A DNA stretch of 64,000 nucleotides from Clavaria fumosa (lineage: Eukaryota; Basidiomycota; Agaricomycetes; Agaricales; Clavariaceae): the NCBI GenBank assembly GCA_951802425.1, contig OX637803.1, positions 3,279,055 to 3,343,054 of the forward strand, given 5' to 3'. Below the pieces are notes generated by a model. It made no database searches. It saw only the letters and a list, made by a program, of their open reading frames with translations, and had not been told where the DNA came from. Made by a program: the position numbers and the translations under genes. This document shows positions 6,889 to 37,492 of the stretch, one piece after another. Each line of letters starts with the position of its first letter. The first letter of the stretch is position 1.

Positions 6889-7800
6889 ATGCCCTGTGGT
6901 CACCATCCCCATGCATCCAGAGTATGAGGACCCCAAGATTGTGGCCCTTGCAAGGTGGTTCAAGAGAAGAAGGCACAGGAGGAGGACAAGTGGAAGAAGA
7001 GGGAGGAAGTGGATCAGGTGTGGTGGGAGGAGATGGAGTGGGTGAAGGCAGTGGAGGTGAAGTGGCATGTGGAGGAGATCGCATGAGTGCATGGAGTGGG
7101 GCAGAAGCGGAATCCAATGCCAGAGTCTGAGGTGGAGCGAGGGGTATGCATGCAGTGCTGGCTGTTGTCACTGGGCTGCATGTACCCAAGTGGAGGGCAG
7201 GGCACTTCATGTGTTGCCTGTGTGGGGGTGAAGCAGAAGTGTGTGGGTGGAGAGGCAGAGGGGCTGGAGCAGAAGAGACTCCACTCTGTGAAGTCAAAAA
7301 AGGTGGTAGAGGAGGAGGTGGAGGTGTGGGAGGTGCGGGCTCTGCAAGCAGAGGTGGAGAGGGCAGAAGTGGAGTGGGCGAGGTTGGCAAAGGCCACCCT
7401 TGACTTGGTGGCCTGCAGTGTGGCAGAGTTGGAGGAGTGGAGGAAGGAGGCAAGGGTGGAGAGGAAGGAGTGGAGGGTGGAGCAGAAGGCAGTGGCAGAG
7501 GATTGGAGGATCCTCCAAGAGTTTTTTATGGGGAAGTGGGGGGTGGAGGCAGAGGTGGAGGAGAAAGCAGAGGGAGAGAAGATGGTGGTAGAGTCAGAGG
7601 CAGAGATGGAGATGGAGGGAGAGAAGGAGAAGGAGGATGCAGAGATGGATGCAGAGGTGGAGGTGGAGGCAGAGATGGAGGCAGAGGTGGAGAAGGAGAA
7701 AGAGGCAGAGGCAGAGGAGGGGGAAGTAGGAGCAGAGTCCAGGCTGAAGGAGCCTGAAGGAGTTTTACAAGCATTGCCTGGCTCACCCCCCTCTGCCTAA
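6889..7800 (+). pseudogene. Antisense accessory gene of gypsy family E: Zn2Cys6-like, Glu-rich
   Basis: Plus-strand gene just downstream of, and convergent with, the minus-strand gypsy pol at 8131-11230. The frame is best from 7087 to 7800. A CX2CX6CX10CX2CX6C cluster at 7147-7242 (CMQC...C...[11 protein letters not shown]) has the spacing of a Zn2Cys6 binuclear cluster. A long charged helix rich in E, V, W and A follows (residues ~75-230; coiled coil likely), ending SPPSA. Upstream, 6889-7086 is homologous to the N-terminal part of the copy at 24656-25445 but has shifted frame. The 5' end is cut at 6889. A nucleic-acid or protein-binding role is only inferred from the cysteine spacing. The GGAGAA-rich region makes parallel frames look open. 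Confidence 0.6.
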
Positions 7801-8130: not shown

Positions 8131-9446
8131 TATGCATGGATGGAAGTCCAAAACAGCCTCAGAGGTGTGTACAAGGTCTGTAGCTGGTAACCAAGATGTT
8201 TCCTCATTGGTCCCACTGCACCAAGTAAAGGAGTTTGCAGGTGTGGTGTTTGTTGATCTTGGAGTTAGAAATGTGGAAGACAGGGTGGACCACTCACATG
8301 GCTTCAGGGAGTTGGAGTATGAAGGGATGCAAGCCAGCCTCTCCAATGATCTCGAAAGGTCCAAGGAACCTTTCAGAGAGCTTCTGGGATGGTCTGGTGG
8401 TATGGAAAAACTTTGCCTTAATGTAGACTTGGTTTCCAACCTTAAACCTCAGTGCCAGAGCCCGATGGGTGTCTGCTGGACCTTGATAGTGACATTGTGC
8501 ATTGGCAATGTGGGTATGGAGTTCTTGGTGGAGCTCATCCAAGTCCACAGCAAGTTCTCAGGCACAAACCAAGATTACTTCATGTTCAGGGTACACCAAT
8601 ATGTTCAGATGATAGCCCTTGTTTGCAAAGAATGGAGAAACCCCAGTAGTGGCACTCAGAGCATTGTTGTAGGCAAACTCCACTAGAGGCAGCAGTTCAG
8701 ACCAGTTGTCCTGCTGGTAATTGCAGTAACAACAGAGGTATTGTTCCAATGTCTGGTTAGTGCTCTGTTTGTCTGTTGCCCTCCAGATGATATCTGGAGG
8801 TAAAGTGCAAAGTCATATCAAGGACTTTGCCCAATGAGCAGAAGAAATGGGAGACAAACTCAGAGCCACAATCAGAGGTGACATGTGACAGAACTCCATG
8901 TTTTGAAAAGATGTGAGGTATGAACAGGCAAGCCAACTCTGTGGAGTTCACTTTGTTGGTTGTTGGGATGAAAATCCCCTGCTTCATAAACCTATCAACA
9001 ACCACCAAGATTGTGGTAAAACCAGAGCTCTTGGGGAGTTGCTCAATGAAATCCATTGAGATGGAATTCCACAGTTTCTCAGGTATGGGCAGCTGCTTAA
9101 GCATTTCATATGGCTTATGCTGAGGGGCTTTCACCCTACCACAAGTTGTGCAAGATTTGCAAAAGTCTGATACAAATCCTTGGAGTTTTGGCCAGGAATA
9201 GTCCCTGAAGACCAAGGCCATAGTCTTGGTCCAACCAAAATGTTCAGCAAGCGGGTGATCATGTCTTGCATGTAAAATGCAGAATTGGAGGTCATCAACA
9301 TCTGGTACATAAATCTGTCTGCACTCACAGAGAAGTCCATTGTTGTCCATGGAGTTCAAGCAGAGGTCCTGCAGAATTGGAGTGATCACAGGATCAAGCA
9401 AGAGTCCAAACCAGATATCCTCACAGAGTTGATTATTGTCAATCAC
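8131..9446 (-). pseudogene. Gypsy integrase with partial chromodomain (family E)
   Basis: Minus-strand integrase. The zinc-binding part shows H and C pairs (HARHDHPLAEHFG, then CKSCTTC near 9160-9140). The catalytic core shows SMDFIEQLP (first D), VTSDCGSEF (second D) and, in place of the usual GQTER, a degraded GNRQTEH near 8765. Downstream pieces give [19 protein letters not shown] (about 8710-8655) and the conserved GPF.I...LQLPEAM tail near 8300. After HPVFHIS there is a deletion, then a partial chromodomain (CKLLYLVQW ... ETSWLPATDLVHTSEAVLDF, 8240-8140). Several frameshifts and stops make it inactive. Confidence 0.9.
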
Positions 9447-9599
9447 GAATGAGGCACATGCATGTAGTGCAGCACATAGAGCAATGAAGCTTGGAGTGAT
9501 GAAATCAATTGTCCACCAGTGAACATTGGCTAGAGATTCTGTGGATTGATGCAGGCATGATCACTATCCACCTCTTTGGGATAGACATCCCAATGTCTA

Positions 9600-10950
9600 G
9601 TCAACATCAGGTTTCATTCCAAGGTGACTGGGGCAGAATCAGATCATGAAATTGAACTGGGAGAGGAACTTCAACCACCTGGCTTGACACCAGGTGAGCA
9701 GGCAGACCATGGAGAAATACTCAAGGTTCTTGTGGTCAGTAACAATGTTGACCAGAGTTTCAGAACCTTCGAGATAATGCCTCCAAGTGGTAAATGCCCA
9801 GGGTGTGGAAATGAAAAGTGATAGGATGGACTTCACTGTCGGAGGTGACCGTAGAGAGAATCATGGAAACAGCATAGTCTGAGGTGTTGGTTTTGACTAT
9901 AAGCAGAGCTCCAGGGATAAAGTGTGAGAGGATCAGCATGGAGGAGAACACAGTTTGTAGAGAGTCAAAAGTGGACTGGCAGTTGTCAGACCAATGCCAC
10001 TGTATGTTCTTATAAGTGAGGCAGTTCATTGGAGAGACAACATTGCAGTAGCCATGGATGAAACAGCAATAGAAATTGGCAAATCCAAGGAAGGACTGTA
10101 CATCTTTGACCTTCTGCGGAGTGGGCCATTCCTGTATAGCTTTAACTTTAGTTGTTTCCATAGAAGGTCCAGCTGGAGATAAGACAAATCCAAGGTACTC
10201 CATGGTCTCAGCATGAAATTCACACTTAGCTGGGTTCAGGAAGAGACTGTTCTTCTGGAGCCTTTGGAGTACCTCTCAGACATGTTCATACATGTTGTTC
10301 TGGGTCCTCAGAGTAGATGAGGATGTCATCAAGATAGACAACCATGAACATGTCAAGGAGGTCAGAGAAGACATTGTTCATGAAATGCTGGAAAATGGTG
10401 GGTGTGTTTGTGAGCCCAAAGGGCATCACACCATTTGAAGGACCCATATTGGGTGCAGAATATGGTCTTCCATTCATCACCCTCAGCAATATGGACCAGG
10501 TGGTATGCATGTTGGAGGTCAAGTTTAGTGTAGATTTGGGCTTTTCCTGGAACATCAAGAAGATCTTTGGTTAGCAGAAGTGGATAATGGTCCTTTTTGG
10601 TCACTTTATTGAGACCATGGAAATCAACACAGTGTCAGAGTGTTCCATTCTTTTTCTGGATGAAGAGCACAGGTGCTCCATGTGGAGAATGGCTCAGACA
10701 TATGGATCTGATGCAGAGATGCTCATCCAGAAACTTGTGGAGTTCACTGAGTTCAGACTGCAACAAAGGATAGACTATACCTGGCAGAAGAGATTGCCCC
10801 TCCAGATGGTTGGTGCAGAGCCAGGGTGTCTGCCTTCTTTTTACTGAAGATGTCCAGAAAATCCCTGTACTCCTCTGGGACAGAGAGGAGATCCTCCTGG
10901 GTGGTGTCAAGGACGTGCTGCAGATGATGGTTGAGCCAAAGCACATGGAA
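9600..10950 (-). pseudogene. Gypsy reverse transcriptase-RNase H (family E)
   Basis: Minus-strand RT and RNase H in several frame-shifted pieces. In order: a palm start with SPHGAPVLFIQKKNGTL (~10690-10640), [23 protein letters not shown] (10530-10460), [17 protein letters not shown] (~10440-10370), the catalytic [11 protein letters not shown] box near 10345-10310, then LGFVLSP and the connection domain (10200-10000). The RNase H part ends in TWRHYLEGSETLVNIVTDHKNLEYFS near 9790-9700. The order matches Ty3/gypsy pol. There are multiple frameshifts, so it cannot encode one polyprotein. Confidence 0.9.
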
Positions 10951-11230
10951 TGGAGACAGACAGAGAGACAGAGGTGGACAAAGGGACAGAATGGAGAGTG
11001 CTGGCCAGTGCACCCTCCAGGACAGATTCCAGAGTTTTTTTCTCATTTATAGATGGTCTGGGTGTTATCTGGGCAGTAGTCCAGTCAACCAGCAGGTTGC
11101 GTTGGAACAGCCAATTCATTCCCAAGATCACATCACATGAGGGGTCAAGATCAGTAAGATGTTAGTCAGATCCATGGGGGAGAGCTGAATGGAGAGCTGG
11201 ACTGCTTTGGTAACCCAGATGGAGGTGCCT
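10951..11230 (-). pseudogene. Gypsy protease C-terminal fragment (family E)
   Basis: Minus-strand protease tail with WVTKAVQLSIQL near 11215-11180 and the family motif ILGMNWLFQRNLLVDW near 11131-11080, followed by the protease-RT linker (EYRDFLDIFSKKKADTL, ~10870-10820). The left arm of the protease and all of gag are missing: at 11230 sequence of an oppositely oriented gypsy begins. A matching gag plus protease start of the same family exists at 1-1318, but the two pieces overlap by about 13 diverged codons, so they come from different copies. Confidence 0.8.
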
Positions 11231-11830
11231 TGTGAACTACTTGCCATTTCCAGAGATGTCCGCAAAAAGATGAAGGATATGGTCACTGCCCGCCGTGTTC
11301 TGGTCACGGTCTCTGCAGTGCAGGATACACTCTACACAAATGTTACGGCTCCGGACACCTCCGATCTCGTTGTGGCAGTCGATGCCGCTCCGCTCCGCAT
11401 TGTAGAAGGCATATTGGATGGTCGAATCGCTGTGGAGTGCCTTCTCGACCAGGGAAGTTCGATTGTAGCAATGTGGCGAGACGTCTGGGAGAAACTTGGC
11501 AATCCACTACACTCTGAACACGTTATTCACATGGAATCCTCTCATGGTACCATTGCTCTGATGCTCAGACTCATCAAAAATTCCCCTTTACAGATCGGTC
11601 TGTGCACGTTCCATGTTCAAATGCAAGTGGCAGACACACTGCCCTGCGAGGTTCTTGTCAGACGACCATTTTTTATGCTAACTGGCTCGCAAACAATCGA
11701 TCATCCCCATGGGGCCCAGGACCTCATTCTAAATGATCCAAACACAGGAGAACGAATCATAGTGCCAACAAAAGAGCGAATCCCGATCTGCAAAACATTG
11801 AAGAATAAGAAACCGCATCCGGATTTTTGA
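11231..11830 (+). pseudogene. Gypsy aspartic protease region (family 2)
   Basis: Start of the surviving part of a plus-strand gypsy. About 200 codons encode the protease domain: a leader (TSDLVVAVDAAPLRIVEG), the catalytic loop LLDQGSSIVAMW near 11446-11480 (D-x-G-S type), and a C-terminal VLVRRPFFMLTGS motif near 11650-11690 that resembles the ILGRPF of this lineage. The gag gene is absent; the junction with the family E element is near 11230. Coding resumes at 12937 after an inserted LTR. The reading frame is open here, but later pol parts carry stops. Confidence 0.75.
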
Positions 11831-12029
11831 TGGCTGGAGCCTCGAACATCCGCAAATCTATGGACTCACCTCTGATCAATGTGGACATGGAAACTATACC
11901 CAAATACGAGACTCCAGCCATCTTTTCCACTTCCGTTCAGAATTCCTCATCATCTCTTTGTAAATCTAGCCCCTCTTGATCCTTGTATCAGTGTCTTGGA
12001 CATTTCTCTCGATTCTGTTGATTCCCCAG

Positions 12030-12936
12030 TGTAGTAGGCTGTACAGGTGTTGGCTGCAAATAGATGTTCGTGGCCGGGTTCTTCAGGGGGTCTTATTACA
12101 CAATGGGTACACTAGACAGAACCTTGGAGGATGTGGAGGTTGAGTGTAAAAAGGTTCAGAGAGTGAAAATATACGTTGTCCGGAGTATCCGGTATCGGAT
12201 CCGATAGAGTCCGATGTTTGGATCGAAGGTTGGAGGGGCCAGCAACGACGAAGGCCAGCGGATCAATAGGTACGACGAAGGGTGAGCTTGCTAAAAATCA
12301 CAGCACGATGTGGGCGTTCAAAAAGCTGGATTTCCATATAGTCCGAAGTGTGCTTAAGTACAGTTCTGTAAGTACGGCAAATTGGAATGTATGGAAATGT
12401 CCGGAAAACATATGGAACAGCGCCATGTCGCGTGAAGGGTTATATGGAGGAGTTATATCACAAGGGAATTGAGTAGCTCAGAGGAATGAAATGTCCGATG
12501 TCCGGACCGCTCGTAAACTGAAGGAAAGTGGGGCTGGTACAGCAAAGGGGTATTAGGAACAATGGGCAAAGTACTGCAAAGGGTTTGAAACGTTCAAATG
12601 ATTGAATGGTTGAAAGGGATCACAATATGAAATTTACAGCATGTTATATGAAATAAAGGAATGGGAATGGAATAGTGAGTATGTCGAGCGCTGACCATGC
12701 TGGAGTGATGAAATAGAAAGGCGTGGGCGGTGTGTGAGACCTGCGGGCTGTGATCGTCACGGGGGATTGAAGACCGGGGAGTCCGATATCGAATATATAT
12801 CAGATGCTATTGGACGTTATCGGACGGTGTCGGATGGTTATCAGATCGTATCGCACGTAATTGCCTTGGATCGCAAAATATCCGGATAGTCGGTTTCTGT
12901 CATATTTCCGTGTTTAGACCACATATAATCCTTACA
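12030..12936 (-). mobile_element. Solo LTR of family 2 inserted in a family 2 pol
   Basis: 907-bp LTR running from TGTAGTAGGCTG to ATAATCCTTACA. It is the same family as the LTRs at 18265-20051 and lies in opposite orientation to its host element. It splits the pol linker between CISVLDISLDSVDSP and VATKCELTHP; removing it rejoins the frame. Flanks are CCAG on the left and CCGG on the right, read as a 4-bp target-site duplication (CCGG) with one CpG-type change. No internal element sequence is present, so it is a solo LTR. Confidence 0.8.
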
Positions 12937-14760
12937 CCGGTCGCTACCAAATGTGAACTGACACATCCGAATATCGCATATCCCCTGTACAACAATTCCT
13001 CCGAAATGAAGGTCCTGTCTACAGATGCCATTTTGCCAGTTTACTTAGGAAAGAAATATAAGAAGGTGGCGAACTGCATCAATCCAATCAAAGCGACAGT
13101 ACCCGAAGAATTCTGTATTGTCTGACGATGGCATCCAGACCCCCTAGCCGATATACCGACTCTTCCAACACACCCCCCCGATTTCACCCCCAGTCTCTGA
13201 TATACTCAAGACCAGAAAGATGCGCATAACACAAACCCCACCGGATTCTTATGGCCGGAGGAAGAAGAACTTGTTCACTATCTTATCAAAGCCCAGGAAG
13301 ATGCCTTCGCTTGGATGGAGACTGAAAAAGGACGATTCAACGCAAAATACTTTGATCCAATTATCATCCCAACAGTCAAACATGTCCCCTGGATTTTCAA
13401 AAATATACTGATTCCCCCTGGCATCTACAATGAAGTCCTAAAGGTTATCTGAGAAAAGATAGCAGCTGGAGTCTACGAAGAATCCAATTCATCTTATCAG
13501 TCCCAGTGGTTTTGTGTGTTAAAGAAAGATGGAAAGTCCCTCCGACTCGTACACAACCTCCAGCCATTGAACAAAGTCACTATCAGCAACTCGGCAGTTC
13601 CCCCAATAATGGAGGTTTTTGCAGAATCATTTGCTGGACGCGGATGCTACGGATCACTCGATTTATTTGTCTCCTTCGATCAACAGTCTCTCGATGAGTG
13701 AAGCCGAGACCTTACCACATTTCAAACCCCTCTCGGAGTCAAACGGCTCACTTGCGTCCTGATGGGATACACCAACGTGACGCAAATTATGCATGGAGAC
13801 ATCACGCATATCTTGCAAGATGAAATTCCGCATGTCACCATCCCATTTGTAGATGATGTAGCAATTAAGGGCCCAGAAACCCGATACAAGCTTCCGGATG
13901 GCACTTACAAGACGATCCCGGAGAATCCGCAAATATGGCAGTTTGTTTGGGAGCATTTAAATAATGTCAACCGGGTGCTCCAACGAATCAAGAAAGTCGG
14001 AGGAACCATTAATGGCAAGAAAACAACAATTTGCACCCCCGAAACAATAGTTACTGGACACATGTGCACATATGAAGGGCAAGTTCCGGATGCTTCCAAT
14101 GTTCAGCGTATTCGAGACTGGCCTCCATGTGAAACACTCACAGATGTCCGATCATTTGCAGACTACTCCAGATATTCATTAAAAACTATGCAGTACTTGC
14201 CTGACCACTCATCAATCTGACTTGCAAGGATGTTCCATTCAGGTTTGAAGAAGAAGAGCAAAATTTGATGGACCGACTTAAGGATGTAATAGTCAACTCA
14301 TCCACCGTTCGACTGATCAATTACCGCTCTGGATGGCCCGTGATTATGGCCATTGACTCGTCCAACATCACAGTCGGCTTTGCGCTATTTCAAATCAGAG
14401 AAGATGGAATCTGGTACCCATCTAGATTCAGTTTGATTACCTGGAATGAACGCGAGGCCTGATACTCTCAAGCAAAAATTGAGTTATACGGACTGTTCTG
14501 CGCACTTCAGTCATATCGGATTTACCTTATCACCTTCCGAAATTCATTGTCAAAATGGGCACTAAATTCATTAAGGGTATGCTAAACAATCCAGACATCC
14601 AACCAAACGCTGCCATGAATCGATGGATTGCTGGTATACTGCTTTTCGATTTCGACCTTGTTCATATTCCCGCAAATAAACACACCAGAGCCGATGGATT
14701 ATCATGCCGACATGCCACAGATGGTGAGGAAGACACTGAGTCCGAAGATCATGAAGAGTG
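12937..14760 (+). pseudogene. Gypsy reverse transcriptase-RNase H (family 2)
   Basis: RT and RNase H of the plus-strand family 2 element. RT motifs in order: QSQWFCVLKKDGKSLRLVHN (~13500-13550), YGSLDLFVSFD with the first catalytic Asp (~13640-13680), DLTTFQTPLG (~13710-13740), MGYTNVTQIMHGD, and the catalytic box PFVDDVAIKGP near 13840-13870 (F-V-D-D variant). RNase H begins near 14330 with VIMAIDSSNITVGFALFQ and ends about 14710 (TRADGLSCRH). Stops at 13450, 13698, 14218 and 14459 are all TGA; at least three replace Arg codons conserved in the family (CGA decayed at CpG). Clearly gypsy, and inactive. Confidence 0.9.
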
Positions 14761-16445
14761 GATCAATCGGAGCTATGTGTTCGCCATGGAACACATGAAT
14801 CGAGCACCGGAATCTTACTACCCATCCGAGGTGCACCCCCCTGGTATCACTCATACTGGCTTCCAACTTCACACAGGATTGATGCTACTCAATTCGATGG
14901 TACCATCCAATGATTCACCAGCCCCCAACAAATCCTTCACTATCTTTATACCCTGGTCAGACGCAGCAAAGAAAAGATCCGCAAAATTGAATCTTTCCTT
15001 CGAAACCTGATCCATCCTTCTGGCACCAACACAAACCAGTTCCGACGATTAGTCTGCTCCGCACCTGAGTTCTTCATCCTTGATAACAAGCTATGGTGTC
15101 GCTGACCTAACAGATGCCACCAGGTAGTACCTCCGGACTACAAATGGCTTGCAATTATCACTGAGGCACACGATTCACTTGGCCACAAAGGTGTTTACAT
15201 TATCCAGACATGTATCTTAAATCGGTTCTGGTGGCCGGTGTTGGATCAAGACGTAAAGTGGTTTGTCCAAACTTGTCACCAGTGCCAGACTCGGCAAATC
15301 TGGAAGATCTTTATTCCACCAATGGTCGCCACACCAGCCGGTCTTTTCCATTGAGCGCACATTGATACCATGTTCCTACCCAGGGCTCGCAGTTTTCGAC
15401 TTCTTCTCCATGCCCGATGCTCATTATCCACATATCCGGAAGCGAGACTGCTACGAAACGAGACTGCCCGACTTCTCGGAACCTTCATATTTGAAGATAT
15501 ACTGTGCTGATGGGGAGCAGTAGAGGAGATCATTATGGATAACAGTACCCCATTTATCAAGGCCCTCGATTTCCTCAAGAAATGGTATGGAATCTGTCAC
15601 ATCTGTATCTCCAGATATAATTCCCGCACTAATGGCATCATTGAACATGCCCACCGGTCAGTCCACAAGTCGTTAATCAAAGCAGCAGATGGAGACAAAT
15701 CGAAATGGCCAGACGTTTTACCCTCAGTCATTTGGGCAGAACGAACCACAATCCAATGATCCACCAGTCACTCTCCATTTTACATCACACATGGCGTTGA
15801 ACCACTTTTCCCTTTCAACATATCCGAAGCAACATATCTAATTCTGACCGCCGATGCCCCGATAACTACTGCGGAACTGATAGCCCTTCGAGCCTGCCAA
15901 CTACAAAAATGAGAAGAAGATCTAGCAACAATCGCTGATAAAGTACTTGCTGCCCGAAAACAATCTGTCAAGCAGTTCATCGACACACACCGGAACTCTA
16001 TCATCAACTACGATTTCAAACCCGGATCACTGGTATTGATCTGCAATTTGGCTGTAGAAATGGCACTAAATCGGAAGACAAAACCGTGATTCTTCGGACT
16101 GATGATCATTGTTCGCCGAACTCAATACAGTGCATATATCCTCTCAGAACTCGATGGCGCTGTCTCAAAGATCCACTATGCAGCTTTCCGCATCATTCCA
16201 TACTATCTGCGATTGCAAACATTGATTCCAGTCACATCTATCATCAATCAAGCGATGGAGATAAAAGAGCACATCTCACGCTATCAACCACACGAGGCCT
16301 CACATAACTCTACCAACACCAAGGATGGGGAAAACCAAACTGCTGAACTATCTGATGAATTTGATAACGAAGCCACCGACACCGACGCTCCGAAATCTCG
16401 CCCACAACGCTCCGGAGCAACCCGAAACCTTCGGCCTCGCTATTA
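14761..16445 (+). pseudogene. Gypsy integrase (family 2)
   Basis: Integrase of the same element. The zinc-binding module is EAHDSLGHKG ... CHQCQTR (15160-15300). The core D,D,E residues are recognisable as AHIDTM (~15356), IMDNSTPF (~15540) and NGIIEHAHR (~15630), each in a slightly degraded context. The tail contains AFRIIPYYLR and ends NLRPRY at 16445, with no chromodomain. Several in-frame stops (for example near 15105, 15354, 15758, 15911 and 16088) and a frame change between 15360 and 15530 disrupt it. It converges on the minus-strand accessory gene that ends at 16705. Confidence 0.85.
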
Positions 16446-16704
16446 AGCATTTTTCTCTATCATATCCCTTATTTTTTCTTTAATCCATTGATCTTTGACC
16501 AAAAAATAATAATTGAAATTTCGGACAAGTCCAAACTTTATACCTGGCGTCCCTTTTAAGCTTTTTCTTACACTCTCACATCCTTTACTCACTTCTCTTA
16601 CACAATATAGTAATCCAATTGCAAAAGAAAAACACACAAAACATTTATACAGTAAACAGCTCACCAAGGAGAAGCATCCAGAGCAACTCGGCTCTGGCCT
16701 TCAC
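16446..16704. other. Convergent 3' untranslated region
   Basis: AT-rich gap between the integrase stop (plus strand) and the stop of the accessory gene (minus strand). No gene is seen; it presumably holds both 3' ends. Confidence 0.5.
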
Positions 16705-18124
16705 CTAATCAGCCCCCCTTTCCATCATCTGGAGCGCCTCCCTCATAGACGACCCTGCCACCGTCTCCCGCTCCTTACCTTTCCGACTCGGACCCACCTC
16801 CACTTTCTTTCGCTTTGCTGGCGGCTCCACCATCTCCACGCTATCATCATCCTCAATCTCGTCTTCTTCCTCCTCCTCTGGGGTCGTATCTTCACGGACT
16901 GGTGCCCGCGTCGCACCCCGCCTCGGCCTCTTGCTCCCAGTTGCCTCCATCACCTTCAGACCTGCTCCGATACATTAGCTAATGCGGATCCGATATTTTC
17001 TTGACTTACCTCCGGTGCCGGACACCGCCACCCTCTCGGCTTTCATTCCTGAAACATACCTTTCAGATTATTTCAACACCGAAATAAAAAGAATATTACT
17101 TACCTCGTACAGCCGAGAGACTGCACGACACCTTGTAGGTCCGACACCACTGACATGCCACTCCTTCCACTCCGTAACATGAGCGCCGCTTCCGGGCGCA
17201 CGCTTCGCAGGCCGGCTTGTGTTCCTATTTTCCGGATCAGAGACCTAAGGCTCAAAAAAACCCCATTTGACAACTCACCTTGTCTCCAGGTTGCCATGCA
17301 GCTCGGGACCTGATGTCCGCTCCCGCTCCGGTCCTCCTCCCTCGCCCTCGTTTCTCTGCTGCCCCCCTCGCAATCTCAACCCATACCGGCGTCACCGTCA
17401 TCCGCCCGCACACCCGATGCTCCAGAATGGGGGGACCTTGATGACTAGGTGATGACCCCCCGGCTCCCGCACTGACTGCCCCCACGGATCCGTTTCTTCA
17501 TTTACGCCCAGCTCCACCGCCTCCGTCAGATCCGTCACGGCCGGCACAACTGTTGCTGGTATTGTTGTTGTTGCTGTTGCTGTTGCTGCTGCTGCTGCAC
17601 CCCCCTCTCCTCTTCCTCACCGTCCTCGCTCCCGACAATCCGATGCGCCCGGGCGAGTTGCGCCCTCTTCTCGGCAGCCCTCGCCGCCTCCGTCCGCCTC
17701 TCCTCCGCTGCGGCTCTCTCGGCGGCCGCCCTCTCCTCGCTCGTGCGTCTCTTTTCGGCCTCGGCCTCCTCCTGTTTCCTCGCCTGCTCGGCAGTCCATT
17801 CGTCCCCGCAGAGCCTCCGCCACTTCTTGAGCTTTCGCACAACGAGGATGAGTCCTTCGTCCACTTCCACGTCATCATCAATTGCAGCAATGTAGCCGGC
17901 AAGAAAATCATTCCATAAATTGTCAGTGCAATGTGAAAAAGAAAGAAAGATACACCATGCACAGCATCGCCCCCATACATCTGCACCCACTCTGCGTACT
18001 CACCATCCTGCCCCTGTTCCGGTAATTCTTCACCCAGCGCCATGGCCCGTGCCTCTATCATCGCCTGGACCGCATTTTGGAAGAGTAGGGAATCGAAGTT
18101 TTCCATTGTTGAATAAGTTGACAT
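16705..18124 (-). CDS. Antisense accessory gene of gypsy family 2: spliced Zn2Cys6-like protein
   Basis: Minus-strand split gene between the integrase end and the 3' LTR of the plus-strand gypsy. The start is ATG at 18124 (MSTYSTMENFDSLL). The N-terminal region is followed by a charged E/A/R helix (17830-17640) and a glutamine run (~17600-17550). Downstream exons are joined by introns 17225-17278, 17049-17103 and 16962-17009 (54, 55 and 48 bp; GTGAGT/GTAAGT donors), all frame-preserving. Exon 17104-17224 encodes CEAC...C...CQWCRTYKVSC, a CX2CX6CX7CX2CX6C cluster (17209-17123) with Zn2Cys6 spacing. The C-terminus is basic (SKRPRRG), then acidic (PEEEEEDE), then lysine-rich, a nuclear-protein look. 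Frame joins near 17930 (possible intron) and 17490 are unresolved, so it may be broken there. Function unknown; it may regulate or package the element. Confidence 0.65.
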
Positions 18125-18264
18125 ATTGCTGTTGATGGAGAAAGCACAAGAGCCTGTTTGGACCCATGCGCGCCCACACAACACATACTTCACAATCAAT
18201 AAACGATTATTTGGCTTTGTTTGGTTGCAATCGAGGACGGTTGCATTTTCAGCCCCCAGGAGAA
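18125..18264 (+). other. Pre-LTR region with candidate polypurine tract (family 2)
   Basis: Non-coding segment between the accessory gene start and the LTR. Its last bases (AGGAGAA at 18258-18264) directly precede the LTR edge and could prime plus-strand DNA synthesis for a plus-oriented element. This supports assigning the 18265 LTR to the pol at 11231-16445. Confidence 0.45.
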
Positions 18265-20051
18265 TGGAAGGATAATATACAGTTTAAACAAGGAAGCATC
18301 ACAGATACTGACTATCCAGATATTTTTCGCATCAAAGGCAACAGCGACCGATAGCGTCTGGGACGTCTGATAAATGTCTGATATCAGACTCTCCGGTCTC
18401 CAGTCCCCCATGATGATCACAGCCTGCAGGTCACACGCACTGTCTACACCCTTCTATTTCATCACTCCAGCATGGTCAGTGCTCGACATACTTGCTGTTC
18501 CATTCCCCTTCCTTTATTTCATATACCATGCTGTAAATTTCATATTGTGCTCCCTTTCAAGTGTCCACTAGTTTAAACATTTCAAACCCTTTGCAGTATC
18601 TTGCCCATTGTTCCTAGTACCCCTTTGCTGTACCAGCTATGCTTTCCTTCATTTTACGAGCGGTCCAGACATGTGCTGGTCATCGGACATTTGATTCCTC
18701 CAAACCGCTGTAAGGATGATATGCGGTTTAGACAAGGAAACATCACAGATACTGACTATCTGGATATTTAGGCATCAAAGGCAACAGCGACCGATAACGA
18801 TCCGATACTGTCTGATAACATCCGGGACATCTGATAAACATCCAATATCGGACTCTCCGGTCTCCAGTCTGCCATGATGATCACAGCCCGCAGGTCATAC
18901 ACACCGCCCACACCTCTCTATTTCATCACTCCAACATGGTCAGCACTCAACATACTCACTATTTCATTCCCCTTCCTTTATTTCACATACCATGCTGTAA
19001 ATTTCATATTGTGATCCCTTTCAACCATCCAATCATTTAAACATTTCAACCCTTTGCAGTGCTTTGCCCATTGTTCCTAGTACCCCTTTGCTGTACCAGC
19101 CACACTTTCCTTCATTTTATGAGTGGTCCAGACATATGCTAGTTATCGGACATTTCATCCCTCCGACTCACTTATGAATTATGGCCCTTATATGACCCTG
19201 TGCACAATACTGCATTGCCTTCTGTAGCTTCCAGAGATTTCTGTAGGATCGGATTTGCTGTACTTAGAAAAATTGTACATAAGTATGTACCAGACTCTAT
19301 GGAAATCCAGCTTTCTAGACGCCCATATTGCACTGGGATCTTTAGCAGGCTCACCCTTCGTCATACCCATTGATCCACTAGCCTTTGTCGTTGCCGGCCC
19401 CTTGAACCTTCGATCCGAACATCGGACTCCACTGGATCCGATACCGGATACTTTGGATAACATATATTTTCATTCTCTGAACATTTTATACTCAGTCTCT
19501 ACTTCCTCCAAGGTTCTGTCTAGTGTCTACGTCGTGTAACAAGACCCCCTGAAGAACCAGGCCATGAACACTTGCTTGCAGCCAACACCAGTACAGCCTA
19601 CTACACCGCATGACTCATTTATGAATTATGGCCCCTATATGACCTTGTACATGATATTGCATTGCCTTCTGTAGCTTCCAGAGATTTTCGTAGGATCAGA
19701 TTTGCTGTACTTAGAAAAATGTACATAAGTATGTACCAGACTCTATGGAAATCCAGCTTTTTGAATGCCCACATTGTGCTGTGATCTTTAGCAGGCTCAC
19801 CCCTCGTCATACCCATTGATCCACTGGCCTTCATCATTGCCGGCCCCTCGAACTTTCGATCTGAACATCGGACTCCACCGGATCTGATACTGGATACTTC
19901 GGATAACATATATTTTCATTCTCTGAACATTTTACACTCAGCCTCTACATCCTCCAAGGTTCTGTCTAGTGTCTCTGATGTGTAACAAGACCCCCTGAAG
20001 AACCTGGCCATGAACACCCATTTGCAGCCAACACCAGTACAGCCTACTACA
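18265..20051 (+). mobile_element. Family 2 3' LTR, interrupted by a younger LTR
   Basis: Outer LTR made of two halves, 18265-18708 and 19610-20051 (886 bp together), beginning TGGAAGGAT and ending CCTACTACA. It is split by the complete LTR at 18709-19605. The halves align in order with that inner copy and with the 12030-12936 copy. To its right lies an unrelated minus-strand gypsy protease, which it abuts at 20052. Confidence 0.8.
18709..19605 (+). mobile_element. Solo LTR nested in an LTR of the same family
   Basis: 897-bp LTR from TGTAAGGATGAT to CCTACTACA, flanked on both sides by CCGC (18705-18708 and 19606-19609), a perfect 4-bp target-site duplication. No internal region is present, which is consistent with LTR-LTR recombination after insertion. 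Confidence 0.88.
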
Positions 20052-20731
20052 ATGTCCATAAAATTGTGGTACTCCTGTAGAACTATTTCTTTGGGGTTTG
20101 GGGGAGAAGTTTGGGTGGTTGCAGAACTCACGAGTATTGATTCATCATCATAGGGGTTGTTCGCAGGCTGAAAATGGAGGAGACCTATAAATTCTCCTTG
20201 TTGTTCCAATTGACGAAGCATGGTGGCCTTGACCAATTGAACTTGCAGGGGTTTAGGAGATTTCGGTGTTGAGTTCATGAGGTCAGGAAGAGGTTTACTT
20301 GGGGGTTTCGCATCCAGAAGGGTGAGAGGGATAGTTGCGGAGCAGGCAGTCTGTCCAAAACTAAAGGAGAGGTTAGTCCAGTCAATCTTGGGGTTCCAGG
20401 TTCGCAGCCAGTCAAGCCCTAGAATGACGGGAGTGAGAGGATGGGTCTTGGTGATGAGGAACTTGATGGATTGGATGGTATCGTCAGGGAATTTTGTATT
20501 AGCGAGGATGTAGTGGGTGATATTGGAGCTGGAGGAACTTCTGTCAAAATATTGAAGAGGTAGGGGTTGTGGGAGTGGCATTAGGAGGTTCAGATGGGTG
20601 TTTGCAAGAGTAAAATCGATAAAATTCATTGATGTGCCACAGTCAACAAGAGTATTGAGAGGAATCGAGCCAAAATCTGGGATTTGCATTTTTATGAGAA
20701 AGGATTGGGAGGACTGGGAAGCAATAGGCAT
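20052..20731 (-). pseudogene. Gypsy aspartic protease and start of RT linker (family 3)
   Basis: Minus-strand protease of a gypsy whose 5' LTR is at 22862-24200. The catalytic loop is NTLVDCGTSMNFID near 20660-20620 (D-C-G-T instead of the usual D-S-G), and the C-terminal motif is ILGLDWLRTWNPKIDW near 20425-20380. The linker ends EYHNFMDIV at 20052, where RT would begin, but the sequence is cut by the family 2 LTR. The reading frame is open throughout. Whether Cys in the active loop is tolerated is unknown; the same D-C-G occurs in the separate gypsy at 46658, so it may be a lineage feature. Confidence 0.85.
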
Positions 20732-22861: not shown

Positions 22862-24200
22862 TGTTAGGGCCTGTCCTGTCTTGTAAGTAACGTTGAAGGT
22901 TGACTTGTTGGTGACCAATCCTGGAAACTTGCTAAGACCAATCAACTGTTGAGCACAGTCTTGGTCCTGGAAGGTTGTGGGGATGTCTGAAAGGTGTAAG
23001 AATGGAAATAGACAAATAGGGAGACAGGAGGACATCGCTGGGAAGGTCACGAAGTCAGTAGACAAAGTGTAAAGAAGGAAAAGGACAAGTTGAGAGAAAC
23101 AGATAATGCTGAGAAGGTCACGAAGTCGACCAACAAAGTGTAGAAGGAGAAATAGACAATGTTGAAAGAGTCATGGGTAGTTGTGATGGTGTCGAGAGAT
23201 GTGTTGGTGAAGGCAATGACTTTGCCAACCAATGAGAGAACCTATGGGGTTCGAAGAATCAGTACCAAGACAAAAGAAAGGAAATACTTAGAGCGTGCAA
23301 GTTGTATGAATGCAGAGGATGAATTTAGAAAGAAGCAGAGTGATCTTGGTGTTGTCAAGGTGAGACAAGACCTATCAATCATGGTGGTTCCAAGCTCAAA
23401 GGGTGTAATAGCCTCAAGCTTAAACCAAAGTGCGTCAATATCAAGTCTACAGTATGAGAAGTACATGTGAGACTTATATAAGTGCATAGAGAAGAGTATA
23501 ACAAAAGAGGAAAAGTACAGAGGTCACCAAGTGACAAGACTATAGTAGTATGGGGTATGTTTAGTCGTAAAGTGACTAGGCGCATGTTCTACTAAGGTCG
23601 CAAGGGGTTAAGAAAGCATAGGTAAGGTTGTGACCTGGTTAAATAATCATATATGTAACTATAACTACGGGGGATTCTCAGATCATATGTAACATAGTTA
23701 TAGACAACTGAGGAGAGGAAGGAGAACATAATTTGAAGGGTATATGCAGCTGACCGTCAGTGGCGCGTTTGAGTGTTAAGGTCACAAGGTCATAAGAGTG
23801 GTCATGTGGGTGACGGTAGTGATGCAGGTGACCTTGGGCGGGAGGTCACATGGGTAACGCTGGTAATGTGGGTAACAGTCGTAATGCTGATAATGTATTG
23901 GTGCTGGTAGTGGTAGCGCCGAGAGTGCCGAGCGGCAAGTCACATGCCAGCTGAAGAAGATGTGCAACAGCATGTCACGCATTGAGGTGGTGGGCCCAGG
24001 CAAAGTATACACATGGGTGAGGCAGAGAGAGGTGTCGCGAGTATGGCATGGTGGTCGCGAGTGTTGTGTGAACATGGGGGAGGTTGGGGAGGCTTCCAGA
24101 AGTGTGTAGAGGAGCTTGCGAGGTTGTAGAGGGTTGTCAGGAGGTTCATAGGTGTTTGTAAAGTCAGCTTGGGTAAGGGAAAAATGAATGGGTCCTGACA
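22862..24200 (-). mobile_element. 5' LTR of family 3 gypsy
   Basis: 1339-bp LTR with borders TGTTAGGGCCTGTC...GGTCCTGACA on the plus strand (TGTCAGGACC...GGCCCTAACA in element orientation). The minus-strand gag starts about 50 bp beyond its inner edge, so it is the 5' LTR. It inserted into the pol 3' end of the family E element that resumes at 24201. Related copies lie at 43799, 48683, 52465, 52893 and 57376. Confidence 0.85.
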
Positions 24201-24300
24201 ACCAGCTACAGAACTTATACATGCCTCCAAGGCTGTGTCAGACTTCCATCACACTTATCTGAACAAGCCAGACCTCTCAACTCCCTTTAAACCTTACTCT
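24201..24300 (+). pseudogene. Chromodomain end of a second family E pol
   Basis: The first bases after the family 3 LTR read PATELIHASKAVSDFH, collinear with PATDLVHTSEAVLDFH of the family E element at 8131-8180. This is the last part of a plus-strand pol whose remainder was displaced by the family 3 insertion. Confidence 0.7.
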
Positions 24301-24655: not shown

Positions 24656-25445
<790 letters not shown>

Positions 25446-25667
25446 GTTGTGAAAAAATTTAGAAAGAGTTTTGCCCATGCTAGGGGCTAGTGATGGTGGT
25501 AGTGGGTTAAGGAAGAAAAGAAAAAAGGAGTGTGATGCACATGGCCTTTTGAGCCCCAAAATATTTTCAGACTCTGCTTGACATGCCACGAAACTCCAAG
25601 ACTAACTCATTATGGGAGACATGTGTTCATGTGGACTTTGGCTAGAGGGTCTCAGGGGTTTGACCCT

Positions 25668-32128: not shown

Positions 32129-35100
32129 CTAGCTGTAAAACAAATGGCCAATGCAAGTTTGGCCACATAATAAAAAACTGCAAAATGTGTTATAGGAACT
32201 TTGTAGACATGTTCTATAGGTAAAACAATACAACTTTTGTATGGATCATGTCTCACCCCACTTGCTACTTCAAAAGATCCCCTGGTTTTCATTTTGGCCT
32301 CTTCCTAGTGTATCATTACAAAGAATAGCATATTGTACAATACGTAGGCATGGGAGGCCTATGAAACTTTGAGGAGACATTCTCTATAGTATATCAATGG
32401 TTTATGGCCACTTACCTGATCCCCTAAGCTTCTACTTTCAAAGATCCCCTGAAAATGCCCAAAAAACTCATTTTCCCGGGATCTTTGGACCTGGACACTA
32501 AAACACTTATGTAAAGCACCCACACCCTTTCCCTATACCCCCTCTAACCCCCCATACCATTCACTACCAAGTGGCCAATGCTCCACTTTCTGCTGACCCT
32601 TCTCTAACATCTGGCCACAGCTGGCCACTGTAGTTTCGGAACCTGGGATCTTTGGAAGCATAAGGTATACCACACTCAAAACACCTGGAACCTAGTGTCA
32701 AATAGGTGCCCTAACCCCAGGAATATTTTCAGGATTTTTGAACCGCTTATAGATTCTGGCCAATAGGCCACTTTGCCAAGACCCTAGCTGTAAAACAAAT
32801 GGCCAATGCAAGTTTGGCCACATAATAAAAAACTGCAAAATGTGTTATAGGAACTAGCTGTAAAACAAATGGCCAATGCAAGTTTGGCCACAAAATAAAA
32901 AACTGCAAAATGTGTTATAGGAACTTTGTAGACATGTTCTATAGGTAAAACAATACAACTTTTGTATGGATCATGTCTCACCCCACTTGCTACTTCAAAA
33001 GATCCCCTGGTTTTCATTTTGGCCTCTTCCTAGTGTATCATTACAAAGAATAGCATATTGTACAATACGTAGGCATGGGAGGCCTATGAAACTTTGAGGA
33101 GACATTCTCTATAGTATATCAATGATTTATGGCCACTTACCTGATCCCCTAAGCTTCTACTTTCAAAGATCCCCTGAAAATGCCCAAAAAACTCATTTTC
33201 CTGGGATCTTTGGACCTGGACACTAAAACACTTATGTAAAGCACCCACACCCTTTCCCTATACCCCCTCTAACCCCCCATACCATTCACTACCAAGTGGC
33301 CAATGCTCCACTTTCTGCTGACCCTTCTCTAACATCTGGCCACAGCTGGCCACTGTAGTTTCGGAACCTGGGATCTTTGGAAGCATAAGGTATACCACAC
33401 TCAAAACACCTGGAACCTAGTGTCAAATAGGTGCCCTAACCCCAGGAATATTTTCAGGATTTTTGAACCGCTTATAGATTCTGGCCAATAGGCCACTTTG
33501 CCAAGACCCTAGCTGTAAAACAAATGGCCAATGCAAGTTTGGCCACAAAATAAAAAACTGCAAAATGTGTTATAGGAACTTTGTAGACATGTTCTATAGG
33601 TAAAACAATACAACTTTTGTATGGATCATGTCTCACCCCACTTGCTACTTCAAAAGATCCCCTGGTTTTCATTTTGGCCTCTTCCTAGTGTATCATTACA
33701 AAGAATAGCATATTGTACAATACGTAGGCATGGGAGGCCTATGAAACTTTGAGGAGACATTCTCTATAGTATATCAATGATTTATGGCCACTTACCTGAT
33801 CCCCTAAGCTTCTACTTTCAAAGATCCCCTGAAAATGCCCAAAAAACTCATTTTCCTGGGATCTTTGGACCTGGACACTAAAACACTTATGTAAAGCACC
33901 CACACCCTTTCCCTATACCCCCTCTAACCCCCCATACCATTCACTACCAAGTGGCCAATGCTCCACTTTCTGCTGACCCTTCTCTAACATCTGGCCACAG
34001 CTGGCCACTGTAGTTTCGGAACCTGGGATCTTTGGAAGCATAAGGTATACCACACTCAAAACACCTGGAACCTAGTGTCAAATAGGTGCCCTAACCCCAG
34101 GAATATTTTCAGGATTTTTGAACCGCTTATAGATTCTGGCCAATAGGCCACTTTGCCAAGACCCTAGCTGTAAAACAAATGGCCAATGCAAGTTTGGCCA
34201 CAAAATAAAAAACTGCAAAATGTGTTATAGGAACTTTGTAGACATGTTCTATAGGTAAAACAATACAACTTTTGTATGGATCATGTCTCACCCCACTTGC
34301 TACTTCAAAAGATCCCCTGGTTTTCATTTTGGCCTCTTCCTAGTGTATCATTACAAAGAATAGCATATTGTACAATATGTAGGCATGGGAGGCCTATGAA
34401 ACTTTGAGGAGACATTCTCTATAGTATATCAATGATTTATGGCCACTTACCTGATCCCCTAAGCTTCTACTTTCAAAGATCCCCTGAAAATGCCCAAAAA
34501 ACTCATTTTCCTGGGATCTTTGGACCTGGACACTAAAACACTTATGTAAAGCACCCACACCCTTTCCCTATACCCCCTCTAACCCCCCATACCATTCACT
34601 ACCAAGTGGCCAATGCTCCACTTTCTGCTGACCCTTCTCTAACATCTGGCCACAGCTGGCCACTGTAGTTTCGGAACCTGGGATCTTTGGAAGCATAAGG
34701 TATACCACACTCAAAACACCTGGAACCTAGTGTCAAATAGGTGCCCTAACCCCAGGAATATTTTCAGGATTTTTGAACCGCTTATAGATTCTGGCCAATA
34801 GGCCACTTTGCCAAGACCCTAGCTGTAAAACAAATGGCCAATGCAAGTTTGGCCACAAAATAAAAAACTGCAAAATGTGTTATAGGAACTTTGTAGACAT
34901 GTTCTATAGGTAAAACAATACAACTTTTGTATGGATCATGTCTCACCCCACTTGCTACTTCAAAAGATCCCCTGGTTTTCATTTTGGCCTCTTCCTAGTG
35001 TATCATTACAAAGAATAGCATATTGTACAATACGTAGGCATGGGAGGCCTATGAAACTTTGAGGAGACATTCTCTATAGTATATCAATGATTTATGGCCA

Positions 35101-36597
35101 CTTACCTGATCCCCTAAGCTTCTACTTTCAAAGATCCCCTGAAAATGCCCAAAAAACTCATTTTCCTGGGATCTTTGGACCTGGACACTAAAACACTTAT
35201 GTAAAGCACCCACACCCTTTCCCTATACCCCCTCTAACCCCCCATACCATTCACTACCAAGTGGCCAATGCTCCACTTTCTGCTGACCCTTCTCTAACAT
35301 CTGGCCACAGCTGGCCACTGTAGTTTCGGAACCTGGGATCTTTGGAAGCATAAGGTATACCACACTCAAAACACCTGGAACCTAGTGTCAAATAGGTGCC
35401 CTAACCCCAGGAATATTTTCAGGATTTTTGAACCGCTTATAGATTCTGGCCAATAGGCCACTTTGCCAAGACCCTAGCTGTAAAACAAATGGCCAATGCA
35501 AGTTTGGCCACAAAATAAAAAACTGCAAAATGTGTTATAGGAACTTTGTAGACATGTTCTATAGGTAAAACAATACAACTTTTGTATGGATCATGTCTCA
35601 CCCCACTTGCTACTTCAAAAGATCCCCTGGTTTTCATTTTGGCCTCTTCCTAGTGTATCATTACAAAGAATAGCATATTGTACAATACGTAGGCATGGGA
35701 GGCCTATGAAACTTTGAGGAGACATTCTCTATAGTATATCAATGATTTATGGCCACTTACCTGATCCCCTAAGCTTCTACTTTCAAAGATCCCCTGAAAA
35801 TGCCCAAAAAACTCATTTTCCTGGGATCTTTGGACCTGGACACTAAAACACTTATGTAAAGCACCCACACCCTTTCCCTATACCCCCTCTAACCCCCCAT
35901 ACCATTCACTACCAAGTGGCCAATGCTCCACTTTCTGCTGACCCTTCTCTAACATCTGGCCACAGCTGGCCACTGTAGTTTCGGAACCTGGGATCTTTGG
36001 AAGCATAAGGTATACCACACTCAAAACACCTGGAACCTAGTGTCAAATAGGTGCCCTAACCCCAGGAATATTTTCAGGATTTTTGAACCGCTTATAGATT
36101 CTGGCCAATAGGCCACTTTGCCAAGACCCTAGCTGTAAAACAAATGGCCAATGCAAGTTTGGCCACAAAATAAAAAACTGCAAAATGTGTTATAGGAACT
36201 TTGTAGACATGTTCTATAGGTAAAACAATACAACTTTTGTATGGATCATGTCTCACCCCACTTGCTACTTCAAAAGATCCCCTGGTTTTCATTTTGGCCT
36301 CTTCCTAGTGTATCATTACAAAGAATAGCATATTGTACAATACGTAGGCATGGGAGGCCTATGAAACTTTGAGGAGACATTCTCTATAGTATATCAATGA
36401 TTTATGGCCACTTACCTGATCCCCTAAGCTTCTACTTTCAAAGATCCCCTGAAAATGCCCAAAAAACTCATTTTCCTGGGATCTTTGGACCTGGACACTA
36501 AAACACTTATGTAAAGCACCCACACCCTTTCCCTATACCCCCTCTAACCCCCCATACCATTCACTACCAAGTGGCCAATGCTCCACTTTCTGCTGAC
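32129..36597. repeat. 655-bp satellite array
   Basis: Six full monomers start at 32129, 32854, 33509, 34164, 34819 and 35474. A 469-bp partial seventh starts at 36129. A 70-bp partial duplication (32784-32853) lies between monomers one and two. Monomers differ by only a few bases (for example CCGGG/CCTGGG and ACGTAGG/ATGTAGG, both CpG changes), so the array is recent or homogenised. Each monomer holds inverted motifs around AAAGATCCC/GGGATCTTT and a minus-strand CAG|GTAAGT. A 66-codon open frame recurs in every monomer, but array homogenisation alone explains that. Confidence 0.97.
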
Positions 36598-36932
36598 CCC
36601 TACCCACAACACTTGGCCAATGCAGCATTGGCCAACTTCTGTTAAATAATTTCCAATAATCACCAAAATATTCATATGCCTAGTTCCCATTTTTGGCATC
36701 ATCTTTTGTATGGAAACCATATCCCACTTTCCATCTGTTCCAAAGATCCCCATTATTCTTGATATTAAATGAGCTTGGCACATTGGCTATATCTCAGCAA
36801 ACACTTCATATATTTTCATCAGACTTTGTGAGTAGATGCATACCTATGAGCAGTATCCTCAGTAATATTTATATGAATTTACATGATTTAATGTAAAGGG
36901 TAGAGTGGGTGTGCAGATGAAGCAGAAGTATG
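36598..36932. other. Diverged satellite-like flank
   Basis: No gene. 36690-36760 (TCTTTTGTATGGAAACCATA... CCAAAGATCCCC) resembles part of the 655-bp monomer (ACTTTTGTATGGATCATG...AAAGATCCCC), so it looks like an old single copy at the array edge. A near-perfect 23-bp inverted repeat (TTGGCCAATGC/GCATTGGCCAA) lies at about 36613-36635. Confidence 0.55.
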
Positions 36933-37492
36933 TGTCAGTCCAAGTCCCTCACAGAAGTGAGAAGGGGAAAGAAGCTCGATTTCAATGTAGGGAACTACAC
37001 ACATTACAAAGGTACTATATATACTGGGGAAAGGGGGCTGTGTAGGGGATGAGTCATAAAAAGGGGAATGAGGCTACGCGCACTGAGTTGCGCAGAATAG
37101 GGGAGGCAGTATAGGGAAAAGGGGATACCAAATACAGAAGGTAGCAGCAAGGGACGGATAAGGGGAAAATGACAAGAGAAATGCTTAGCATGGGCTTGGC
37201 TGGCCGTGGAGGGGCCTGGATTAGTCCCGATTAGGGTAGATTACTTGATGGGAGCTGTCAGAGGGATTATTGCTGATCTGCCTCCATCACAAATTGCAAA
37301 GTGTGGGAAAAGGTCGAGGAACGTGGGCATGGGCACGTGGCAGCGCTTATCGGGAGCTCATAGGTGTCAGCGCATGGTCGCAGGCGACTCCAAAGGTTGC
37401 AGAGGGTCATGTGGTCCCATACTCGGCCCTCGTAACTAGTCCCTAGTGCGTTGTGGATTCAGTGACGGTGGCTTATGTAATGGATCCTGACA
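36933..37492 (-). mobile_element. 3' LTR of family 4
   Basis: 560 bp, TGTCAGTCC...ATCCTGACA on the plus strand. A TATA-like ACTATATATACTG lies at about 37014-37026, shared with the other LTR. It has more TpG/CpA at differing sites than the 5' LTR, so it is the more decayed of the two. Confidence 0.92.

Follow-up and report, generated by a model that had tools for sequence, protein, structure and literature searches.

An antisense gene encoding a Zn2Cys6-like cysteine cluster recurs beside the 3′ end of pol in three Ty3/gypsy families of Clavaria fumosa

RESULTS

Zinc-cluster-like genes lie antisense to pol in three Ty3/gypsy families

The DNA analyzed here (the window) is a 64-kb stretch at the end of contig C10 (OX637803.1) of the basidiomycete Clavaria fumosa, the genome of which comprises 48.8 Mb in 17 contigs, and retrotransposon remnants are dense across it. 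Between pol and the 3′ long terminal repeat (LTR) of one of these, a Ty3/gypsy element referred to here as element B, lies a gene on the opposite strand, gene B, with six cysteines spaced as in the Zn2Cys6 domain of fungal transcription factors; comparable genes, A and D, accompany two other families. A six-frame scan of the window for stop-free CX2CX6CX5-12CX2CX6C clusters returned exactly three, at 7147-7242 (+), 17123-17209 (-), and 50708-50794 (+), the same three that a first-pass annotation had reported as complete, and none was found in 60 order-1 Markov control sequences. The fixed spacing common to B and D, CX2CX6CX7CX2CX6C, matched twice in the window compared to no match in 100 dinucleotide shuffles. 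A fourth gene, a second copy of gene A, was confirmed to retain only the end of the cluster.

Genome-wide, the gene was found at no fewer than 40 places for B (72 match rows merged into 40), at least 35 for D (15 rows matching a subtelomeric repeat only were dropped and 3 merged), and at least 37 for A (5 short rows dropped). Among the gene-pol pairs listed, the gene was antisense to and 3′ of pol in 18/18 pairs for B, 16/16 for D, and 15/17 for A, and the same arrangement was seen in 7/7, 10/10, and 4/6 of the pairs at a distance of over 300 kb from any contig end. These lists hold best candidates, and the absence of a listed pol within 4.5 kb of the gene at 22/40 B, 19/35 D, and 20/37 A places is not evidence of absence. 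The two A pairs with gene and pol on one strand count against a uniform arrangement; both are on contig C2 and look like a single duplicated arrangement. A position between pol and an LTR applies to B and D, while the A LTR was not delineated, so the arrangement of gene A is described only as antisense and 3′ of pol. These results indicate that an antisense zinc-cluster-like gene beside the 3′ end of pol, proposed initially from the window alone, is a real and general feature of the three families.

Gene B is present in the full-length copies of element B examined

Element B displays the protease, reverse transcriptase (RT), RNase H, and integrase order and the direct LTRs of Ty3/gypsy elements, with its pol domains searched with stops read as X. 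Eleven B places, including that of the window (L009), are 98-100% alike, and 11/11 lie within 300 kb of contig ends. Among the matches listed (C6 is not listed), the solo LTR inserted in inverted orientation in element B was present at 99-100% identity in 9/10 of the other near-identical places, and 9/10 matched the window over 4.7 kb, including the solo LTR nested in the 3′ LTR (L017 over 3.7 kb). Since they have these solo LTRs in common, the near-identical places are block duplicates, and we rejected their interpretation as recent transpositions. The flanks of the inverted solo LTR were contiguous in 8/10 loci compared, the remaining two being without a left-flank match. A reading in which element B is cut at 12942 was also rejected, as the inverted LTR is an insertion and similarity to other copies starts at about 11228.

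The other 29 B places are 73-87% identical, and for 25 of them the nearest contig end is over 300 kb away. Seven full-length B copies of 9.8-10.8 kb are recognizable by direct LTR pairs, and five of these were examined, three from the list of gene places and two picked by their LTR pair alone. Copies without the gene would count against an accessory gene, and all five contained it, with the six cysteines present in both of those picked by LTR pair. Elsewhere in the window, a gypsy element at 36931-43512 has gag to integrase frames and LTRs that are 96.6% alike. Only about 255 bases separate its pol from its LTR, leaving no room for an antisense gene, and it constitutes a single negative example.

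Gene B retains its introns across copies

Alignment of 20 rows from 18 places defined a gene of five exons and about 455 codons, interrupted by four introns of 41-60 nt. The introns were retained at the same places across copies, and clean intron loss was found in none of the 20 aligned rows; the exceptions were L023, which is rearranged, L028, in which the intron 1 donor is changed, and L031 and L033, in which intron 2 was lost along with flanking exon bases. Because antisense introns cannot be spliced from sense genomic RNA, their retention fits propagation through that RNA, as the first-pass annotation had predicted. The same source had described several introns of about 50 bp in two of the genes, which holds across copies for gene B, while the roughly four introns of 49-57 nt in gene D were placed by eye only.

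The gene proposed at 16705-18124 is present, with an amended start: the conserved ATG is at 18106, and the ATG at 18124 does not occur in the other aligned copies. The window copy is not intact, as it has lost the intron 1 acceptor, its exon 2 is frame-shifted by one base, and its last frame stops 15-20 codons before that of open copies. Fully open rows numbered 3/20 (L020 over the stretch read; L029 and L038 to the natural end). The predicted protein also contains a charged helix and basic stretches that resemble nuclear signals.

Gene B is under purifying selection

The ratio of nonsynonymous to synonymous substitution rates (dN/dS) was calculated for 78 pairs from 13 of the 20 rows, leaving out L025 and L035 (from places already represented), L023 (rearranged), and L027, L032, L033, and L034 (thinned), with a resulting median of 0.285 and mean of 0.31. 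Values for 67/78 pairs fell between 0.18 and 0.39, below all 800 runs at matching divergence of a neutral simulation using the observed CpG, transition, and transversion rates (dS 0.36-0.88; means 0.67-0.70, lowest run 0.47). The remaining 11/78 pairs, which are the closer ones (dS 0.06-0.36), weigh against the proposed reading with values of 0.41-0.60; simulation at dS 0.09-0.27 gave mean values of 0.69-0.75, with single runs down to 0.38. For comparison, the RT of element B had a median of 0.19 (range 0.11-0.43) over 153 pairs with dS >0.1 from 19 of 21 sequences, L061 and L066 being left out by a length rule. Within exon 3 of gene B, 0/102 cysteine cells compared to 72/572 other cells differed from the majority in 17 of the 20 rows (L023, L025, and L035 left out). 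The selection on the cysteines that had been anticipated is thus apparent, the six being unchanged in 17/17 rows, and the frame is constrained as well. Given a dN/dS of 0.285 compared to about 0.7 under neutrality, gene B is under constraint that is somewhat weaker than that on RT, and once inserted, copies drift. An aORF-3R, an additional antisense reading frame between pol and the 3′ LTR, is characterized by presence in most copies and by conservation like that of other element proteins; these two properties were assessed for family B, which shows both (gene present in 5/5 LTR pairs examined; dN/dS of 0.285 compared to 0.19 for RT).

Because selection has preserved gene B, the element probably uses its product for its own control. 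We propose, with a probability of roughly one-half, that gene B is a genuine gypsy accessory gene encoding a self-directed DNA-binding regulator or anti-silencing factor, and that A and D carry counterparts. That the antisense RNA is instead the functional product, acting as double-stranded RNA or in copy-number control, is highly improbable; a double-stranded RNA role has been proposed in the passage cited for antisense transcripts of plant elements (PMC7264820), but it is disfavored here by purifying selection on codons and cysteines and by the conserved splice sites.

The cysteine cluster is Zn2Cys6-like

Zn2Cys6 domains (PF00172) have the spacing CX2CX6CX5-12CX2CX6-8C, and all three window clusters conform to it, so that the designation of the first-pass annotation stands as far as spacing is concerned. 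Several results weigh against its assignment to the family itself. The best matches to the Pfam Zn_clus model fell short of its 21-bit cut-off, at 13.2 bits for B (L029; E 0.1, whole domain) and 11.1 bits for D (L071; E 0.44), and L020, the window piece of gene D, its relative P0005 from the public contigs, and gene A were without a match. Profile comparison of B and D with three host clusters of complete spacing gave a pairwise E of about 2e-4 but a probability of only about 47%, and gene A could not be aligned to host clusters by this approach. No sequence match was found in the PDB, the fold models were poor (predicted local distance difference test, pLDDT, of 56 for B and 60 for D), and the B model was without a Foldseek match. 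The profiles of genes B and D matched one another with an E of 3e-4 and a probability of 38%, and no second transcription-factor domain was found in a Pfam search of the B, D, and A proteins. By sequence, the proteins are only suggested to belong to the Zn2Cys6 family, and given the sub-cut-off Zn_clus scores, the profile probability of about 47%, and structure predictions that are too poor to assist, we label the proteins Zn2Cys6-like and do not place them in PF00172.

The host genome contains 16 matches to Zn2Cys6 genes, which would favor the idea that the accessory genes are captured host genes, or else chance frames, hitch-hiking in a few copies. We consider this extremely improbable for B and D, as the genes occupy at least 40 (B), 35 (D), and 37 (A) places in consistent position, selection acts on B, and chance clusters were absent from all 60 controls; for A, only decayed copies were read.

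LTRs of element B carry arrays of candidate binding sites

The B LTR starts with TG and has TCCGATA-type repeats spaced 10-11 bp apart at about 80-160 bases, with a second cluster at about 720-755. The 16 B LTRs contained 5-13 occurrences each of TCCGA/TCGGA, compared to means of 1.0 per 900 bp outside B LTRs in the window (586 overlapping stretches, maximum 7) and 2.2 per 900 bp at host Zn2Cys6 loci (178 stretches, maximum 6), and 10/10 tested B LTRs exceeded all of their 300 dinucleotide shuffles (shuffle means 0.9-2.5). Such words resemble known targets: according to the passage cited (PMC5559640), CGG pairs, whether inverted, direct, or everted, are what Zn2Cys6 proteins typically recognize, and Pho7 reads TCGGA. 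Family B thereby has repeated short motifs in its own non-coding parts, as do the elements that encode VANC.

A number of observations temper the proposal that these arrays are targets of the accessory protein. The B LTRs are related, so their motif counts are not independent; the highest-scoring other stretch of the window, with 7 occurrences, falls within gene B; and an internal part of L039 reaches 9 per 900 bp. A control LTR without an antisense gene was enriched too, in CTGACA (6.8-fold, 4 compared to 0.3) and in G-rich words, so enriched words alone are not unusual. D LTRs were enriched in GGTCAC (5-7 compared to 0.6-0.8 expected) and not in CGG; D-type LTRs with recurrent GGTCAC are located at 22967-24201, 48679-50171, and 57372-58919.

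The leader of element B contains a further candidate, a CCG-N4-CGG dyad located about 20 bases inward from the edge of the 3′ LTR; in L024 and L027, its symmetry is perfect across 20 bases. Longest dyads as good as this occurred in 1.3-2.3% of shuffles. Both triplets are intact in 3/20 rows only, which likewise detracts from the proposal, and most other rows differ by CpG-type transitions. Dyads of the D and A leaders and of B copy L020 were no better than those of shuffles (34-45% of shuffles), and neither the B leader nor the D leader has a dyad in its window copy.

CpG transitions are also over-represented in the divergence between copies, with a relative rate of 6.0-7.1 when transversions are set to 1, compared to 1.5-2.3 for other transitions, and this raised rate lends plausibility to methylation-based silencing in this host. 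VANDAL elements of Arabidopsis, which encode VANC, are DNA transposons. According to the passage cited (PMC5735166), VANC binds short motifs repeated in tandem in non-coding stretches of the element that encodes it and brings about a loss of methylation, and the gene B protein might similarly be a sequence-specific anti-silencing factor and not an ordinary transcription factor. Both the CpG rate, which is expected if copies are methylated, and the presence of a conserved repeat array in the B LTR and another recurrent motif in D LTRs fit this explanation, but the B array could serve any DNA-binding protein, and we regard this explanation as unlikely. It is quite unlikely that the protein acts at a step after transcription of the element, whether in carrying the pre-integration complex into the nucleus, in choosing the integration site, or in RNA export, with a host factor reading the LTR arrays. 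For plant antisense open reading frames (ORFs), such nuclear roles have been put forward in the passage cited (PMC7264820), and the basic stretches and long helices of the accessory protein are compatible with them, but such a role does not predict a conserved zinc-cluster-like module or CGG arrays.

Families A and D are less complete

The window copies of all three genes are decayed, and those of A and D are also severed from part of their element, so the initial description of them is not supported in the form given. The window gene D resembles other copies up to about 51893, beyond which a subtelomeric repeat takes over, and the pol located across the LTR from it (45586-48505) is on the same strand. 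The initial claim that each window gene lies opposite pol at the 3′ end of its element is thus correct for B but not for D, which is not joined to its own pol in the window and is antisense in other copies. Copy L071 (C13:195900-201400) has an LTR followed by gene D (+) and then, on the minus strand, by integrase, Tf2-1-like SH3 domain, and chromodomain, which places gene D antisense between pol and an LTR. The gypsy assignment of family D is by integrase and chromodomain only, with an LTR pair not established. The L071 gene D also has an internal stop, and constraint on gene D is only partly supported, because exon 1 of the single testable pair had a dN/dS of 0.23 but exon 2 one of 0.79, the latter a point against the proposed reading. 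Among public contigs, P0001-P0003 are relatives of gene B exon 2 and P0004 and P0005 of gene D, with P0005, which is from another source, retaining the whole gene D cluster; no relatives were found among viral contigs or in the plasmid collection.

Family A was assigned to gypsy by its RT-RNase H-integrase order, with LTRs not delineated. It is the weakest case of the three, because both copies of gene A read in the window are decayed and a protein search returned no relatives. A long GAGAAG simple repeat at about 24735-25055 has expanded within the second copy.

Other features of the window

The coordinates of the genes and elements are collected in Table 1. Near the contig end, a perfect 1344-base inverted repeat (60785-62128 and 62160-63503, arms separated by 31 bases) may represent either a genuine palindrome or a fold-back created in assembly. 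Subtelomere tandem arrays of 655-base and 114-base units occupy 32129-36428 and 63440-64000, and the last 1 kb of the window contains no TTAGGG or CCCTAA. A copia-type gag with two CCHC knuckles lies at 52963-54301 between 176-base repeats that are 94% alike, with no pol seen, and from its sequence looks like a small non-autonomous LTR element.

Table 1 Coordinates of genes A, B, and D and associated features in the window
Feature	Position	Strand	Remarks
Element B	~11228-20054	+	5′ end missing; order protease, RT, RNase H, integrase H2C2, gene B (-), 3′ LTR
Aspartic protease frame, element B	11189-11827	+	Asp_protease_2 E 7e-5, just under Pfam cut-off; similarity to copies from ~11228
Solo LTR, B family, inverted	12031-12936	-	Between protease and RT; flanks CCAG/CCGG
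pol, element B	13522-15297	+	RVT_1 (under its cut-off), RT_RNaseH_2, Integrase_H2C2; gypsy order
Gene B, copy broken	16705-18106	-	Exons 18106-17954, 17912-17279, 17224-17104, 17048-17010, 16961-16705; by alignment, GT..AG introns
CX2CX6CX7CX2CX6C motif, exon 3 of gene B	17123-17209	-	Six-frame scan; Cys kept in 17 rows
Intron 1, gene B	17913-17953	-	Acceptor lost in window copy
Leader dyad	18226-18245		TGCAACCG-CCCT-CGGTTGCA in L024 and L027; decayed in window copy
3′ LTR, element B	18265-20054	+	Outer pieces 18265-18708 and ~19606-20054; self-BLAST and copy comparison
Solo LTR, B family, nested in B 3′ LTR	18709-19605	+	CCGC/ACCGC either side
U3 stretch with TCCGATA-type repeats (CGG/CCG half-sites)	18755-18873	+	~10-11 bp apart; partly decayed in window copy
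Gene A, 5′ part missing	6889-7797	+	Cluster 7147-7242; cut at ~6886, start and LTR absent here
pol, element A	8261-11042	-	RT, RNase H, Integrase_H2C2, rve, SH3_Tf2-1
Second gene A copy	24656-25460	-	Second half of cluster only, then GAGAAG simple repeat
D-type LTR adjoining gene D	48679-50171	+	Recurrent GGTCAC
Gene D	50288-51893	+	Cut at ~51893; introns ~50655-50705, 51522-51578, 51713-51767, 51831-51879 by eye (GT..AG, frame); early stop 51047
CX2CX6CX7CX2CX6C cluster, gene D	50708-50794	+	Same six Cys in L071 and P0005

DISCUSSION

Antisense ORFs located between pol and the 3′ LTR are an established finding for plant elements and for Boty of Botrytis (PMC7264820, PMC11963269, PMC8365987, PMC4227169). 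Boty-like elements carry the antisense gene brtn, cited as Zhao et al. 2011 (PMC7264820, PMC8365987, PMC4227169), and are thus comparable fungal gypsy elements with an additional antisense gene, the Boty pol having a chromodomain as in family D; Botrytis is an ascomycete, however, and the descriptions of brtn in the passages cited, by which alone it was compared, mention no zinc cluster. The antisense ORF TRP28 of plant Retand elements has predicted DNA binding and a proposed regulatory role (PMC11963269), but the main text of that report contains neither 'intron' nor 'zinc finger', and TRP28 (PF04195) was unmatched in the B, D, and A proteins at Pfam E values up to 10. Gene23 of maize Grande is likewise antisense and 3′ of pol, with a nuclear product and its own promoter, while proteins of this kind are described as without clear similarity to others, and the passages cited mention no LTR motif array (PMC7264820).

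Two systems are comparable in mode of action. HBZ of human T-cell leukemia virus type 1 (HTLV-1) is an antisense gene with a promoter in the 3′ LTR and encodes a DNA-binding-type viral transcription regulator (PMC8622228, PMC7264820) that represses (PMC8622228); it is a bZIP protein of a retrovirus, and the likeness is of working only, with no homology claimed. VANC, as described in the passages cited, pairs an element-encoded protein with short tandem motifs in non-coding element DNA (PMC5735166); it is a different protein, and motif binding has been demonstrated for VANC (PMC5735166), whereas element B has candidate sites only. The fungal Zn2Cys6 factors of PF00172 share the six-cysteine spacing, and the host clusters a weak profile similarity, with the accessory proteins, which differ in falling below the Pfam cut-off and in having no second transcription-factor domain. 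Among the papers listed in searches of the open-licence literature, which were part of those matched, none showed a zinc-cluster gene in a retrotransposon by its title or the start of its abstract. As far as seen, what is new relative to the known cases is the zinc-cluster-like product, the several introns, the occurrence in three families of one genome, and the LTR motif array in B.

Building on the observed anatomy, recurrence, intron retention, purifying selection on gene B, and motif arrays, the proposed self-directed regulator or anti-silencing factor might operate as follows. Antisense transcription of gene B would proceed from the edge of the 3′ LTR in the direction of pol, and the transcript would be spliced by the host to encode a protein that combines a zinc-cluster-like module with a charged helix and with basic stretches like nuclear signals. 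Since the introns run against the genomic RNA, they would be kept during retrotransposition, so that each new copy inherits an intron-bearing gene and the protein can be made only from an integrated copy. Most likely, the protein would then enter the nucleus, bind zinc and DNA, and target the CCG/CGG half-site arrays in the LTR and leader of its own element, where it could set element transcription or shield the element from methylation-based silencing. The accessory protein may activate, repress as HBZ does, or remove silencing as VANC does.

A broader model is that each fungal gypsy family possesses a self-recognition pair, consisting of an antisense, spliced zinc-cluster gene next to the 3′ LTR and a family-specific array of sites for its product in that LTR, that such pairs co-diverge as VANC and its targets do, and that the introns limit production of the protein to copies that are integrated and intact. 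We offer this generalization tentatively and consider it somewhat doubtful.

What antisense ORFs do in LTR retrotransposons is described as unknown in the passages cited (PMC7264820, PMC11963269). With a recognizable cysteine module and matching-looking half-sites in the LTR of the same element, family B makes that function directly testable by binding and reporter assays. If the proposed reading is true, fungal LTR elements use their own sequence-specific regulators, and antisense introns would give a simple reason for a gene that faces backward.
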